Shown here one piece after another: positions 3,001-8,500 of a DNA stretch of 52,667 nt. The number at the start of each line of letters is the position of its first letter. The first letter of the stretch is position 1. The DNA comes from Candidatus Scalindua sp. (GTDB lineage Bacteria; Planctomycetota; Brocadiia; Brocadiales; Scalinduaceae): NCBI GenBank assembly GCA_021777035.1, contig JAIQZR010000158.1, positions 1-52,667 on the forward strand, read 5' to 3'. The notes beneath the pieces were generated by a model. That model was not told the origin of the DNA. It saw only the letters and a program-made list of their open reading frames with translations, and ran no database searches. Position numbers and translations under genes: made by a program.

Positions 3001-3906
3001 CGATAGTGACGGCGAGAATGGCAGTGTGGTCTGATATTGGCTCAGATTGGTCTGTACAATGCTGCGCCCACCAACAATCTCTTTCATGTCACTGTTGGGA
3101 TTTTGATTTTTTATATAATCCACCAGATTAGTAGAATATTCCTTCAGCTTGTTTGCCAGATTTGCCTCATTTAGATTTTGGACATAATTACTTGCCACAG
3201 TCGCTCCGCTAGTCACCGCATTTATAAACGTATTCCTGTCATAACCAAGAGACTGACCAATATCGCTCTGGGTGTCATACAGAGTATCATCATAGGTCTT
3301 AAATGCCGGGTCGAAGAGGTAATGGGTATCGTATATAGTAGCTTTCACCCAGACGCGGTTTATAGCTGGTAATATCAATGGTATACCTGACCATAATATA
3401 ACCTCAGCAATAAGCTCAGGATCAGTATCCACACCTAACCAATTTGCTAATTCATTATTAGGTATAACCATAGTACCATACTGGTATTGTGCAGTATAGC
3501 CACTGGCGCGTAACAGGGCTATCATCAGGGATGCCTGGTCAAAATCATTACCCATGCCGTCAAGATATGTCTTGGTCGCCCCCTTTTGCGATCCGAAATA
3601 AGGAACATAGTCTATATGGTTATGGACATAATCGTAAATCAACTTTGGATCATTTTGTAAAGAACGGGCAAGTTCGGTAATTTCAGGTGTTGCAACTGCG
3701 GCAGATGCCGAAGTTGCTGAAGTTATAGATTCTGCAAAACTATTATAGTAAACTTGAGCTTCCACTGGGGATATGGGTTCAGCAGAACGACCCAGAGTCC
3801 AGCCTTTACTTTCCGTCTGAGAATACACACTTGAGTGTATGAAGAGTAATGACATAAGAGTAAAGCAGAGAGCATAGCAGAACAAATTGCGGTTTAGCAT
3901 TCTCAT
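1..3906 (-). CDS. Secreted YD-repeat (RHS-like) protein with transglutaminase-like N-terminal domain, 3' end outside window
   Basis: One minus-strand frame stays open from the start codon to base 1, about 1300 codons, and continues beyond the window. I chose the ATG at 3906 because an AAAGG lies eight bases upstream; a second in-frame ATG is at 3900. A signal peptide covers roughly residues 1-30. Residues 75-190 resemble the transglutaminase-like domain common in YD-repeat proteins (YDYVHNHIDYVPYFG, then ASLMIALLRASGYTAQYQYG), but the usual catalytic Cys position reads FDQASL and the His position reads NRVWVKA, so it is probably not a working enzyme. From about residue 800 on, many YD repeats occur (for example TATYIYDAAGRL at the left edge). 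These form the beta-cocoon shells of RHS and teneurin proteins. It probably sits outside the cell; toxin or adhesin roles cannot be told because the C-terminus is missing. Confidence 0.88.
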   Translation of the reverse strand, partial: MRMLNRNLFCYALCFTLMSLLFIHSSVYSQTESKGWTLGRSAEPISPVEAQVYYNSFAESITSATSASAAVATPEITELARSLQNDPKLIYDYVHNHIDYVPYFGSQKGATKTYLDGMGNDFDQASLMIALLRASGYTAQYQYGTMVIPNNELANWLGVDTDPELIAEVILWSGIPLILPAINRVWVKATIYDTHYLFDPAFKTYDDTLYDTQSDIGQSLGYDRNTFINAVTSGATVASNYVQNLNEANLANKLKEYSTNLVDYIKNQNPNSDMKEIVGGRSIVQTNLSQYQTTLPFSPSLSQTWDDIPSTLTTTMRIEYQGIDYTFEVPEITGKRLTLTYNNDIPELRLNGTLVAAGSNIPPGTKGFLNVYIDHPYALIVNNTQPYADQFSKFSVESGSTFAIISQFGGISDTVIKKRQTVLDNFLEQGMPDTSEEVLGESLNIVGLTYLNQIFLGDRLLSKLAKTMSYTHHSVLLAAQGAGYYIDHRLHLLGIHSRRNTTEPSWRHHFWTLMTLASGFEHGTLEQLNGSDSAALSTIKLFQIANASGYKIFSSSFSTWGSVSSQLKNYTQGDLQNIYNKAFPVDVDQIVYIPEYGDIGLGGENSWKGSAFIFSHQFEVWTLIGGGYGGAFSDLPVNIPPGTVGKISGITGTPASQMAEVSTPKSEEPVDMFSGEYLYDRTDIALGSPAPLGLAFTRSYNSGCNLTDRTLGNGWTHNYDIYLDRISHGGPGLGKRGPIDAAALIAELYVAFDLMENENNIKGWVITALAHKWAVDQLIDNAKFIHLGGKVLEYIKLPDGSYSPPPGITAQLLDNGDDTFSLQERFGTQLDFDTNDRIADWTDIDANTMSFTYSGSNLSTVQDSFGRMLTLWYNGNHITSVADSTGRSISYGYDGNGNLTGFTDPGSKTWGYGYDSSGRMTSLLDPLGVTTAVNTYDTLGRVDTQTVPRQTGGNKTYNFYFSGFRNAEEDPDGNQIIYCFDDKGRYISRENALGYKYKMVFDGQNHVVKITDPRINDIVFQYDGDHNLTNIFTALNEEYIIGYDPQLRPDTIADPLGHITQLGYDTGHHLTSITDGDGRTAGASYYHNGLLETITDGRDTVTTYTHDSYGSLDTEKTAGHPVIDFNYDTIGRMTSLTDQENAATGFVYDNRGLITSRTDPLTKNTTAVYDDAGRLSFITDRNNDTINYQYTPTGKLEKINYPDFNTNIVNFVYNQHDKLTSMTDTIGATNYTYDEIHRLTSVTDPNGFKVSYDYDEADNLTEITYPNNKKVIYTYDGLNRMKTVTNWLGQTATYIYDAAGRL

Positions 3907-3970
3907 CTTATTATCCTTTACGGTAAAAAAATGGTTATAAAAATATTAAAGTAAATATACATTATGGCCA

Positions 3971-4582
3971 TCAAGGATTTTTTACTATTACCACTACTGA
4001 ATCCATATACGATTGACCTGCGTCAAATGTCCCATTCATTACGGTATCAAATCCAACGAGGAAAGTGTAAATGCCTATTTGTAAAGTACTCATATTCAAC
4101 ACCTCTGTTGACAGATCTTCTAACGGTTTTTGATATGTAGTCGCAAAACCAGGCTGCCATGAATTACCGGAGCCTTCATAATGAAACCAGTAGTTGTTTG
4201 GTAGACCTAAGAGTATCCACCAGTCTGCATCTTGCCCTGTGAGACCCCTTGAGGAAATCTCCACGGTAATTGAAAGATCCGAACCTGCATTTACTATTAT
4301 GGGTTCTCCTGTATAACCATCAAATCCATTTGCCTTCACGTCAGTGGATGTACTTTTCAGAATAACCTTGCTTGTCCTATTGCCGACTTCATCATATGTG
4401 TATGTAACTGCGGTACCATCGGAGTAATTAACCTGTATCAGCCTATTCAGATCATCGTATTGATAATCTGCGGTACTCGCAACAGCGCAATTGAGAAAAA
4501 GCAGAAACTGGAAACATAATAATAACGATACTTTTTTAAACTGTTTTACTCCTAACCAGACTTTTTGTATCCATTCTGACAT
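3971..4582 (-). CDS. Small secreted YD-repeat protein
   Basis: 203 residues with a hydrophobic signal sequence (about residues 17-36) and two YD-type repeats (YQYDDLNRLIQV and YTYDEVGNRTSKV, about residues 40-75). A C-terminal domain of about 120 residues ends in a pattern (VGFDTVMNGTFDAGQSYMDSVVV) that I have met in secreted proteins of unknown role. It has a good AAGGAG eight bases before ATG. It lies 64 bp upstream of the giant YD-repeat gene in the same direction and may be co-transcribed with it. It looks like a detached single tip or cap of a YD-repeat protein and not a fragment produced by a recent frameshift, because it has its own signal peptide, ribosome site and stop. The function is unknown. 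Confidence 0.82.
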   Translation of the reverse strand: MSEWIQKVWLGVKQFKKVSLLLCFQFLLFLNCAVASTADYQYDDLNRLIQVNYSDGTAVTYTYDEVGNRTSKVILKSTSTDVKANGFDGYTGEPIIVNAGSDLSITVEISSRGLTGQDADWWILLGLPNNYWFHYEGSGNSWQPGFATTYQKPLEDLSTEVLNMSTLQIGIYTFLVGFDTVMNGTFDAGQSYMDSVVVIVKNP

Positions 4583-4686
4583 TTCAACTCTCCTTTCAAA
4601 TCTAATATACTTGTAAATTCCATTTTACCCGGCCCTTCTATAGTTGAAATTTAAAGATCTTTAGCATAAAACAGTTAAGTACCCAC

Positions 4687-4743
4687 AAAAAAAACCTTGC
4701 CGGTGAAAGACAATCATTATCTAATCATCTTTCACCGGCAAGG
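4687..4743 (-). terminator. Rho-independent terminator overlapping micro-ORF A
   Basis: A perfect 16-bp stem (arms 4695-4710 and 4728-4743) with a 17-base loop is followed on the minus strand by eight T. It overlaps the last four codons of the micro-ORF, an arrangement like a translation-dependent attenuator. Confidence 0.85.
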
Positions 4744-4797
4744 CCATCTTATTAATACTTCTTCGTAAACTCTTAGATATTTTAAGCTGGATTCCAT
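4732..4797 (-). CDS. 21-residue micro-protein, copy A
   Basis: ATG is preceded by AGGAGG with a four-base gap. The peptide begins MESSLKYLRVYEEVL and ends in W-P-C-R before TGA. The last codons and the stop lie inside the 5' arm of the terminator hairpin at 4695-4743, so a ribosome finishing the ORF would cover and melt the terminator stem. I do not recognise the peptide family. It could be a leader peptide controlling read-through into the YD-repeat genes, a free small protein, or a precursor peptide. The duplicate at 5006-5071 supports that it is real. Confidence 0.6.
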   Translation of the reverse strand: MESSLKYLRVYEEVLIRWPCR

Positions 4798-4958
4798 AGC
4801 ACCTCCTTATGCACAAAAATTAACTTCCTTTTAAAACAATAACGTAAAACACACCAAAAACTGACAGGCTAGCTCTCTAATATACTTACAAATTCCATAT
4901 TACCCGTGTCTTCTACTGCTGAATTTTGAAAATTTTAAGCATAAAAACAAGTGTATCA

Positions 4959-5017
4959 AAAAAAAAACCTTGCCTGTGCAAAGACAATTACTATCTAACT
5001 ATCTTTCACCGACAAGG
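4959..5017 (-). terminator. Rho-independent terminator overlapping micro-ORF B
   Basis: Arms 4968-4984 and 5002-5017 pair with one G-U wobble, one mismatch and one bulge, followed on the minus strand by about nine or ten T. The stem is weaker than in copy A but keeps the same position relative to the micro-ORF stop codon. Confidence 0.7.
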
Positions 5018-5071
5018 CCCACTTTGTAATACTTCTTCGTAAACTCTTAGATATTTTAAGCTGGATTCCAT
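5006..5071 (-). CDS. 21-residue micro-protein, copy B
   Basis: Second copy of the micro-ORF: same start, the same 15 first residues with identical codons, then Q-S-G in place of I-R-W, and again P-C-R before TGA. The ribosome site reads GAGGTG. As in copy A, the stop codon overlaps the first arm of a terminator hairpin. All amino-acid changes between copies are confined to residues 16-18. The function is not recognised. Confidence 0.58.
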   Translation of the reverse strand: MESSLKYLRVYEEVLQSGPCR

Positions 5072-5103
5072 AGCACCTCATTGTGCGTAAAATAATAACT
5101 TCC

Positions 5104-5573
5104 ATATTTAACCTATAAGGCAGGGTATACTAACAATTTTCTTTAAATTGTCAAGATCATTTAAATAGTTTTTTAAACCATATGACGACGTGGATCATCG
5201 TCGATATGTGCTCGATCGAATGATTTGTCTATTGACCATACTTGTCATGGGTGTCCCTATATGTTTATAGTTTCCGCTTATTTCAGATTAATTTATCATT
5301 TGAAGTTTAATATCCCGGATTGTATAGTTTTACATAATATAGAAATATACATGCTAGTTGATAGACACTGCAAAAGAGTTAAATCGTCCAATCCCGGAAG
5401 CGAAGGGGCGCTTAATATATGCCTGACATAATAGTAATTCAATCGCACTTGAAAAACGCAGCAGATTGACTATGCTTAAATGCGAGGATCCGTTTCCTTT
5501 CCACTCCACTCCACTCCATCTCGAAGACTATCTGGACAATGGGAGATAATCAAGCCTTCTAATCACTACATTA
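5104..5573. other. 470-bp intergenic region
   Basis: AT-rich in its middle part, with a short low-complexity CCACT repeat near 5500-5518. No convincing gene is visible on either strand. It must hold the promoter for the leftward micro-ORF/YD-repeat genes and the end of the LVIVD gene transcript, but I cannot pick out either with confidence. Confidence 0.4.
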
Positions 5574-8500
5574 TCAATAGTAACGCACCGAAACCTTGCC
5601 GAATGGTATCTCAGAACTGCGTTTTAGTTTGTACACCGCCAGACCTCCCAACTTCGGCTGAACAAGATGATCACCCATTAATTCGCCGATATTCCATCCG
5701 AATAGTTCATAGCCGGGGTAGTAAAACATCGGTTCCCATGAGAGCTTACGGCCAATTTCGTAGCGCTTCGTCCACTTCTCAGGTGTGATACCTAAATACT
5801 TGTGTAATTTGCCGGAAGCAACCGCATTTTTATATTCCTCGCGGCTCCACGTCTCTGGCACAAGCTCTAAATACGGCTCAAACTCCCAGTCTACCAGCTC
5901 GGGACTGCTGGGAATTATCAGGTCGTAGACACGGACTCCTCCCCAGTAGTCACACACGTACATGTACCTGCCCTCCAGCACCACATCCGTAATCATGTCG
6001 CCTTGGTGGAGCAGCCGGTTGTCAAACCAGTCATCCTGGAAAGTGGGCCTGGTTTCAGGCGTGATATACACAACCTTCATCTGTTCTGGATTCCTGACGT
6101 CTATAACAACGAGCCGAGGATCATCTGTGTCCTCATCTCCTTTGAGCTGATAAAGGTAACCGTGTCCCAATGCATACCGGCGTCCCGCACCTTGCGATAC
6201 ATTGTATCTTCCTCCTTTAAGATCAGGATGATTGTACAAGCCCAGGAACTTCATTGCCAATGGATCAGATACGTCCACAGCGACGGCTGAACCGTCTCCT
6301 ATAGTGATCAGTAGCTTACCGTCCGTAACGGAATGAGTGCCCCCATACACACCCTTCGGAAACGGCATTGAACCAAGCAGCTTTGGATGAAAGGGATCGG
6401 ACGAACAGTCGTATACGAGAACACCACGCGTTCCGGATTCCCAGTCCTTGTGGTGGCCTATGATATATCCGAGTCCGTTCCATAACTGTCTGGTAGGAAT
6501 TGTCGCCGAATCTTCGAGCTTGCCTACTTCTTTGGGATGCTCCATGTCAGATACATCCACGATTCTTCCATTGAAATAAAGGTAATGGCCTGTAACCAGT
6601 TGTGCAAAATTATCGAGTTTTCCCGGCCGGTAAACTCCTCTCATCTCAGGCCTGGTTGGGTTGGAAAAGTCGATTAACGCTTCCATGCCTCCCCATTGCA
6701 GTGATAGCGCTCCCCACTGCTCATTGTCACTTACCAGGAGATGCTGGCTTTCACCCATAGCGTAATATAAACTTGCCACATTAGGTTTGAGAGGCTTGGT
6801 TATGTCAATAATCCATACCCCGTAGTCAGAATCAGGTATGTAGAGACGTTTTTCGTGAGCCAGCATGCCACCACGCGGTTTTGCGCGGTTGAGCCCGAAT
6901 GTTCCGGACAGCTTGATATTAGCAAGATCACCAATGTCAAATATCTTGATCAAATCCTGTACAAATTCCGTTGTATTAGTTAGTCCTGCATCAACAACGT
7001 AAGCATATCTACCGGAAATTGCCACTCCACCAGACCGTATTACCTCGTCACTGGCTCTTGCAATAACCTTTGGGGCGGCAGGGTTAGAAACATCAATCAC
7101 AGCAAGCGACTTCTGCCTTTCCATAAAGTAGATTTTTTTGCCCACCAGACTGGCGTCAGCGATCTGTTTTCCCACATCCAGAGACCCCAGTTTAACAGGA
7201 CGTGCAGGGTCTTTTACACTCCATGTTTCTAGTATGTTATATCTATCTCCTCCTATTGAATAGGCCACACCGTCTTCAATAAAATCAAATAACGGAATCC
7301 CATCCTCCAACATTTTCTCCTTAGGATTTGCAGGATCAGTAAAATCTACCAACCGCAGTCCCTCCCGTTGGAAGATGTAGTCTCGAACGAATTTCGGTCT
7401 TATCGGATCTGACACATCATAAATATGCGTAACTATACCAGGCTTGTCTGGAATAGAGTCGTATTCGGCGATGTGAACTGCCAGTGAGGATATCCAGAAG
7501 TGATATGGTGGGCGCCCAGTAGCTTTTGGCGGCATGGTAATCCCGACAATCGCACCGTTCCTGATCACACCTTCACCGCCGGTTCCTACAAGTTTGAGAG
7601 TTGCGGGTTCCAGAATCTCGACTACTGCCAATGTCTTGCGGTCAAGGCACACATACAGATAGTCTTTGTTTGGTGCAACAATAAGGCTGGTAGCTTCTCC
7701 TGGCAGTTGCAGTCTGCCAACTTCATCCTGGGGATTTTTCGATACGTCAAAAGCGATAACGGCACCGCCTTCAATCGCATATTTCCATTTTCTATCAATT
7801 ACCACTTCTCTACTTTCAGGTGATTTATTTGGCGGGAAGGGCCAGTCTTTCCAGTTTCCTTCAGGAGTTACATAGCAGTAAATATAGTTGTCAAATCCAA
7901 CAACACGGCTGCCGTGGTTTGATGGTGGTGGTACACGATACCGTCCGAGTACCTTAGTTTCAGGAAGGTTGGAGATGTCGATTGCGGTGATACCATTGTA
8001 ACTTGCCAGGGCATAGGCTCGGTCTCCAGACACAAATGGATCCTTCCCAAAGCATCCCGGATCTTCTGTACTAACGGTCTGCGGATTCGAAGTATCTGAA
8101 ATGTCTATAACCTTAAATCCGCTATATGTTTCACCGTTGCCTATCATCAAGTAGTTTCCTTTTACGAACAGCCCATGGACAAAGCCATGAGGAGTAGGAC
8201 AAAAGTTGACCCGTTCAATTTTAGACTCTGTATCGCCTTCGGCAAACTTAAATCGTCCGGAAACAGGATCAATAGCCACCGTACCGCTCTTCACGTGCAC
8301 ATAAGGCCATCCGGCATTGTCTGAAAGATCCTGATAAACAGGTTTACGCGGACGCGAAAAGTTCATCTTACCCGCATACTCCCAGGAACACACATCATGA
8401 TCGTCTGCAAATATTGCAAACTTTTTGCCATAAGCCGTTGATACTTCTTCCGGCTTACAGTCAAAATTTGCTGTAAACGTTAACAGGTTTATATCTCCCA

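Follow-up and report, generated by a model that had tools for sequence, protein, structure and literature searches.

The closest proven case to the element described here is the pil1 leader of Streptococcus gallolyticus, for which there is genetic evidence that translation prevents the terminator: expression drops when the leader ATG and Shine-Dalgarno (SD) sequence are lost, and it is high in variants whose leader ends within the hairpin or immediately ahead of it, as set out in the passages of that report on the leader (PMC3894217). Our element lies in a 52,667-nucleotide (nt) stretch of DNA from Candidatus Scalindua sp. (contig JAIQZR010000158.1, referred to below as the window) and consists of a 21-codon open reading frame (ORF) that carries an SD and ends with its stop codon inside the 5' arm of a U-tailed hairpin, the whole unit being present twice in tandem. 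The original prediction knew of no described family with such an arrangement, but both the pil1 and the pil3 leaders have it, according to the same passages (PMC3894217). The arrangement is thus already described, and the mechanism that we propose is of a known kind. We suggest, with a probability of roughly 0.57, that each unit is a translation-dependent transcription attenuator of the leader-ORF type for large secreted-protein genes, and that the element probably lets the cell switch such genes on and off through translation.

The two units are arranged head to tail on the minus strand, 275 nt apart, in the gap between a gene for an LVIVD-repeat protein and the RHS genes (Table 1), and in each of them an SD is followed by the ORF (beginning MESSLKYLRVYEEVL), a long hairpin and a U-tract, which confirms the predicted tandem with a stop codon in the 5' arm of both copies. 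The encoded peptides are, by reading, rich in charged residues, whereas a type I toxin messenger RNA would be expected to encode a hydrophobic toxic peptide and to be paired with an antisense RNA. The hairpins fold with energies of -26.3 (unit 1) and -38.1 kcal/mol (unit 2), corresponding to z scores of -5.7 and -10.3 against shuffled sequences, and when ranked among 139 U-tailed hairpins sampled in 284 kb of this genome (the window and 20 contig stretches), that of the second copy is the strongest and that of the first is joint third. Of the 139 hairpins, 3 come with an ORF of 15-60 codons that has an SD and terminates in the 5' arm, and two of these three are the units.

Aligned over 248 columns, the units are 82% identical, and their 46 differences are distributed as predicted, with more divergence outside the ORF (41 in 182 columns) than within it (5 in 66). 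The longest identical run extends over 53 columns, from GAGGTGCT at position -8 (8 nt before the ATG) through codon 15, and was matched by 38 of 200,000 column shuffles. That this run covers the SD and the ORF rather than the hairpin argues against plain insulating terminators, in which a duplicated intergenic terminator would shield the RHS genes from the upstream operon and the ORF would have arisen by chance. We regard this explanation as very unlikely, even though two strong terminators do separate the upstream gene from the RHS genes, the codon usage of the ORFs resembles that of random sequence, and no other copy was found in this genome at an expectation value (E) of <=0.001. The absence of synonymous change in the first 15 residues, to which the original prediction had pointed, is no evidence for coding: identity holds through codon 15, but the zero synonymous changes in codons 2-15 are spread over just 8.7 synonymous sites (P ~0.11). 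Because of this P value, and because the codon usage is not gene-like, the two window copies alone cannot tell protein conservation from nucleotide conservation. The shared P-C-R ending is likewise no independent sign, since it lies within the stem and is tied to the sequence of the arm.

A third unit was recovered with R1, a covariance model built from the two window units and run on 75 genomes of the class, whose top match outside the window (67.5 bits) lies in a genome of the same genus, G010 (G010:C24:28952-29111); the search of relatives that had been proposed gave this unit with the covariance model, whereas DNA and peptide searches gave own copies only. The G010 unit encodes MEYKPKEYELKNQRVYKELVLEKKP followed by a stop codon, is preceded by TTGACA and an SD-like AAGGA, ends in a 29-bp hairpin and can be aligned with the window units over the entire leader. 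Its ORF differs from theirs by two indels, of 15 and 3 nt, both multiples of three. Comparing unit 2 with G010 over the aligned core in frame 0 gave a proportion of synonymous differences (pS) of 0.76 and of nonsynonymous differences (pN) of 0.20 (Fisher p 0.006, based on rounded counts, a hand alignment and one independent comparison), against pS/pN of 0.46/0.28 and 0.33/0.30 in the other frames, and frame 0 alone is open in both. At the peptide level the units have LK..RVY.E.VL in common. In all three the stop codon, TGA or TAG, begins 7-11 nt into the 5' arm, with both the stop codon and the arm sequence being different in G010. At eight base pairs both partners have changed and still pair: seven of the 24 terminator pairs, as the proposed covariance analysis of the hairpin was meant to reveal and as would be expected of any terminator, and one of the four pairs of a small hairpin that carries the SD in its loop. 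RNAalifold recovers both the terminator and the SD hairpin when no structure is supplied, and the folding energy of the SD hairpin is no better than that of shuffles (z -0.28 and +0.43).

The surroundings of the G010 unit bear on what the element does. Behind it lies a gene for a protein of at least 1,644 residues with a start that reads like a signal peptide, LVIVD repeats, a bacterial immunoglobulin domain and TSP3 repeats, whereas the gene on its other side is divergent, with a listed start 305 nt away, so there is nothing to insulate. The homologous ORF with its stop in the arm likewise speaks against insulation, and the original prediction, which had reserved a role for the hairpin alone in case relatives lacked such an ORF, is answered by an ORF that has changed by whole codons, still stops in the arm and stands before a large secreted-protein gene. 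The order in G010 is promoter-like site, ORF with SD, intrinsic terminator and large gene; this is the clearest instance of a leader ORF placed between promoter and terminator ahead of a gene, promoters being assigned by consensus and reading. Only 20 nt separate the end of the G010 U-tract from the start codon of the large gene, which means that any transcript of that gene initiated upstream has to pass through the terminator.

We therefore weighed the attenuator against a small independent gene, in which a short messenger RNA would encode a free micro-protein of 21-25 residues, the hairpin would serve as its terminator and protect its 3' end, and the neighbours would be unrelated. Such a gene would account for the good SD, a promoter-like site of its own, the strong terminator and the protein-level similarity, but in G010 the unit is squeezed between the divergent gene and the start codon of the large one, with hardly room for another promoter. 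Moreover, none of the 139 strong hairpins sampled has an ORF of at least 100 codons ending inside its arm, and the unit was not seen in the 73 other class genomes by DNA search, nor as a micro-ORF unit among the R1 matches inspected. We judge the independent gene unlikely. The layout in G010 is that of an attenuator rather than a free micro-gene, and it lends partial support to the earlier proposal that translation decides read-through, which is favoured over the micro-protein because the terminator lies downstream of the promoter-like site and ahead of the gene. What the sequences show is the anatomy of the units, their conservation, a coding-like pattern of change and the layout in G010; translation of the leader, its effect on termination and the signal involved are inferred.

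In the attenuator that we envisage, RNA polymerase would start upstream and transcribe the ORF and then the long terminator hairpin. If the ORF remained untranslated, the hairpin would form and transcription would end before the secreted-protein genes; a closely following ribosome at the stop codon in the 5' arm would shield that arm largely or completely, allowing the polymerase to read through. The small hairpin around the SD and the AUG could set the frequency of ribosome loading, and the two copies in series in the window could make for a tighter switch. Given a textbook ribosome footprint, a ribosome at the stop codon would cover 24 of 24 arm bases in unit 1, 24 of 24 in unit 2 and 20 of 26 in G010, and what is left free folds weakly. 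The best duplexes between leader and 5' arm, with z scores of -1.0, 0.2 and -1.6, all lie near the SD, and none is significant as an anti-terminator.

Several observations weigh against attenuation. Counted from the ATG, the hairpin ends at 103-121 nt. Terminators within the first 100 bp of coding regions in E. coli function without being repressed by ribosomes, and amino acid attenuators have their terminators at a distance of over 20 bp from the leader gene, as stated in the parts of the source that deal with them (PMC4824070); since early E. coli terminators escape the ribosome, a polymerase pause, fast initiation or a slow polymerase would be required here. Shuffling preserves an open frame that stops in the arm in 13% (G010) and 17% (unit 2) of cases, in codon usage neither window ORF resembles a gene (lower scores were seen in 0.5 and 0.7% of simulated gene windows), and the covariation in the terminator is what any terminator would show. 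In the window, the RHS gene is separated from the U-tract of terminator 2 by 104 nt, which leaves room for a possible unseen promoter, and in G010 a promoter could be hidden within the hairpin itself. Finally, the known copies number three in two genomes, as judged from searches each of limited reach.

Those searches gave no sign of a broad family of units. DNA searches at E <=0.001 returned the two own copies only, whether in the window's own genome, in 13 genomes of the genus, in 75 of the class (at most ten candidates scored per genome) or in 392 of the phylum (at most two), own genome included. In the genus search nothing further reached that threshold, and weaker matches at E 0.02-1 were not inspected singly. 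Because these DNA searches missed the G010 unit, they do not demonstrate that further copies are absent. No copies were found in the plasmids and phages searched. A peptide search of 59 genomes gave nine non-own matches (E 0.08-4.8), each of which was inspected and rejected, and degenerate-codon scans for the core [ST][LF]KY[LF]R.YEE yielded eight genome stretches and one viral contig stretch, with no micro-ORF of this kind among them. A third covariance model, R3, restricted to the part before the hairpin and run on 38 genomes, recovered all three units; its 17 further matches (E 0.7-4.8) were inspected and rejected. The string MESSLKYL was not found in the open-licence papers searched.

A different relationship emerged from the terminators: many other R1 and R2 matches in the order are c-di-GMP riboswitches. 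When R1 match loci were scanned, 10 of 12 contained the cyclic di-GMP (c-di-GMP) riboswitch family c-di-GMP-I-GGC (RF03167), the other two being the G010 unit and L102, and in a second set of 20 scanned loci, matched by R1 or R2, 15 contained RF03167 and one RF01051. In the two riboswitch alignments inspected, the 5' arm of the terminator is the 3' strand of the aptamer. Because loci fetched by models built from the units are partly circular evidence, we turned to 30 loci returned by the RF03167 search itself (45 matches in 17 genomes of the family), 21 of which have a strong U-tailed hairpin. These riboswitch hairpins align to the units with higher scores than do 53 generic hairpins from the window's genome (p 5e-7 for unit 1, 5e-6 for unit 2 and 9e-8 for G010, the loci not being independent). 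Within the first 10 nt of the stem, 15 of 21 riboswitch hairpins have the motif CCTT[AG], against 1 of 53 generic ones, and all three units have it at the stem as well; in equal windows the counts were 15/21 and 1/53 at both 10 and 14 nt, with 2/53 generic hairpins at 20 nt. A GCCTTACTGCC-like terminator is a common, non-defining companion of RF03167 in this order, and those of the units are similar to it, not the same. The one riboswitch found in the window's own genome (L154) has other arms.

These likenesses would also fit an orphan riboswitch, a structured RNA derived from the c-di-GMP-I-GGC platform in which control of the terminator arm would fall to a ligand, not to translation, and the ORF would be incidental. 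Besides the terminators and the aptamers at the loci matched, the kept pairing of the SD hairpin with its one compensated pair points in this direction. We nevertheless think it improbable: neither RF03167 nor any other riboswitch match was found in window positions 3500-6500 at E <=5, or in L001 and L103 at E <=10; the whole-codon indels and the synonymous bias in the ORF stand against an incidental frame; after correction for composition, little similarity remains ahead of the hairpin; and since the RF03167 model includes the 5' arm, riboswitch arms are in part bound to look alike. The terminator type, then, seems to be shared with the c-di-GMP-I-GGC riboswitches of the same order, and may reflect shared descent. 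A more specific and tentative idea, unlikely though not far-fetched, is that the sensor was exchanged, the order's common terminator module having been coupled to a translated leader ORF in place of the c-di-GMP aptamer that usually opens it; secreted-protein genes would then answer to ribosome traffic and not to c-di-GMP. Through the terminator type that they share, a ligand-driven and a ribosome-driven switch could naturally be compared on one platform.

The same scans provided side observations on the riboswitches themselves. At E <=0.01, RF03167 counts per genome of the family ranged from 11 (G016), 10 (G015) and 7 (G008) to one each in the window's genome and G010, with none in 5 of the 17 genomes. 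Two loci, L175 (G000:C194:53477-53617) and L126 (G012:C37:5847-5987), have leaders that are by reading similar to each other, with a GCCTTACTG-type terminator, the stretches CCAGGATGGTRC and TACATGRAAGTRG in common and no riboswitch match at E <=10; they are possibly divergent c-di-GMP-I-like or orphan riboswitches. By reading, L136 (G008:C3:225370-225514) resembles a c-di-GMP-I-GGC riboswitch whose aptamer has lost its 5' half, the 3' half and the terminator being retained, and at L098 (G046:C401) such a riboswitch is, by reading, followed by two similar terminators in series.

Table 1. Features of the tandem units and their neighbourhood (window coordinates; promoter-like sites are consensus matches only).
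Feature	Position	Strand	Description
Unit 1 (entire homologous stretch)	5119-4876	minus	from the alignment of the copies
Unit 2 (entire homologous stretch)	4843-4601	minus	from the alignment of the copies
Leader ORF 1	5071-5006	minus	21 codons plus TGA, MESSLKYLRVYEEVLQSGPCR; SD GAGGTG inside small hairpin (GCAC/GUGC)
Leader ORF 2	4797-4732	minus	21 codons plus TGA, MESSLKYLRVYEEVLIRWPCR; SD is the 9-nt match AAGGAGGTG
Terminator 1	5019-4958	minus	stem interrupted by one mismatch and one bulge, followed by 10 T; stop codon starts 11 nt into 5' arm
Terminator 2	4745-4687	minus	unbroken 24-bp stem, then 8 T; stop codon starts 11 nt into 5' arm
Promoter-like site ahead of unit 1	5127-5154	minus	TTGACA, 16 nt, TAGTAT, extended TG
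Promoter-like site between units	4932-4959	minus	TTGATA, 16 nt, TAAAAT
Gene upstream of units	8684-5574	minus	1036-residue LVIVD-repeat protein
First gene behind units	4582-3971	minus	203-residue protein, apparent signal peptide (by reading), one RHS/YD repeat; SD AAAGGAG
Second gene behind units	3906-1	minus	transglutaminase-like and RHS/YD-repeat protein, 1302 codons up to contig end, incomplete

The promoter-like site ahead of unit 1 aligns with the stretch of G010 that begins TTGACAATATAAA, and the homology between the units starts approximately at the transcription start expected from this site; across positions 4400-5600 we counted nine promoter-like sites where 4.9 were expected. A conserved stretch running from GGGTAAWATGGAATTT to AAGTATATTAGA closes both units (4601-4630 and 4876-4905), and its ATG opens, by reading, a second short frame that overlaps the RHS gene start in unit 2 and a frame that stops after nine codons in unit 1. 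The LVIVD-repeat protein encoded upstream has one relative at E <1e-20 (in G014, 68% identity) among the 16 other genomes of the family that were searched, and no RHS-like ORF was found in the 8.2 kb behind that homologue, where other genes lie (by reading). Among 20 non-own matches to the 203-residue RHS protein, the upstream regions of seven were inspected, and none of these has such a leader. The idea that unit 1 was the leader of a lost second RHS gene was rejected, as the spacers align no better than shuffles.

Set beside known systems, the units share the terminator sequence type of the c-di-GMP-I-GGC riboswitch of the same order, and in both the 5' arm does double duty, as part of the aptamer there and as the end of the ORF here; unlike that riboswitch, the units have no aptamer match. 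The pyrBI attenuator of E. coli has a 135-bp leader gene and relies on polymerase pausing that depends on uridine triphosphate. Like the units, it has its terminator inside the leader gene, and a translating ribosome suppresses termination, as that source outlines (PMC4824070). The bmrB leader of Bacillus subtilis also contains an intrinsic terminator inside a leader ORF, with the ribosome governing read-through, but, as far as the relevant passages go, its ORF is 162 nt long, an anti-terminator is predicted, and read-through is brought about by antibiotic-slowed translation (PMC4191407), whereas no significant anti-terminator was found in our units. Two terminators in series within one leader, as in the window, occur in the Bc1 c-di-GMP riboswitch of Bacillus thuringiensis, where they are 28 bp apart and there is a single aptamer, with no leader ORF evident in the portion of the source concerned (PMC11218506). 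In pil1 and pil3, changes in GCAGA repeats shift the stop codon, as the passages on these leaders describe (PMC3894217); no such repeats were seen in the present units, which keep the stop in the arm in three of three cases, have a conserved peptide core and are doubled in the window. The novelty lies in the element as such: a conserved leader peptide that is doubled in the window and has its stop codon fixed in the arm of a terminator of a type resembling that of c-di-GMP riboswitches. If our reading is correct, this conserved peptide may serve mainly to position a stop codon within a terminator, and a leader of this kind would guard large secreted repeat proteins in a lineage distant from the Gram-positive cases.
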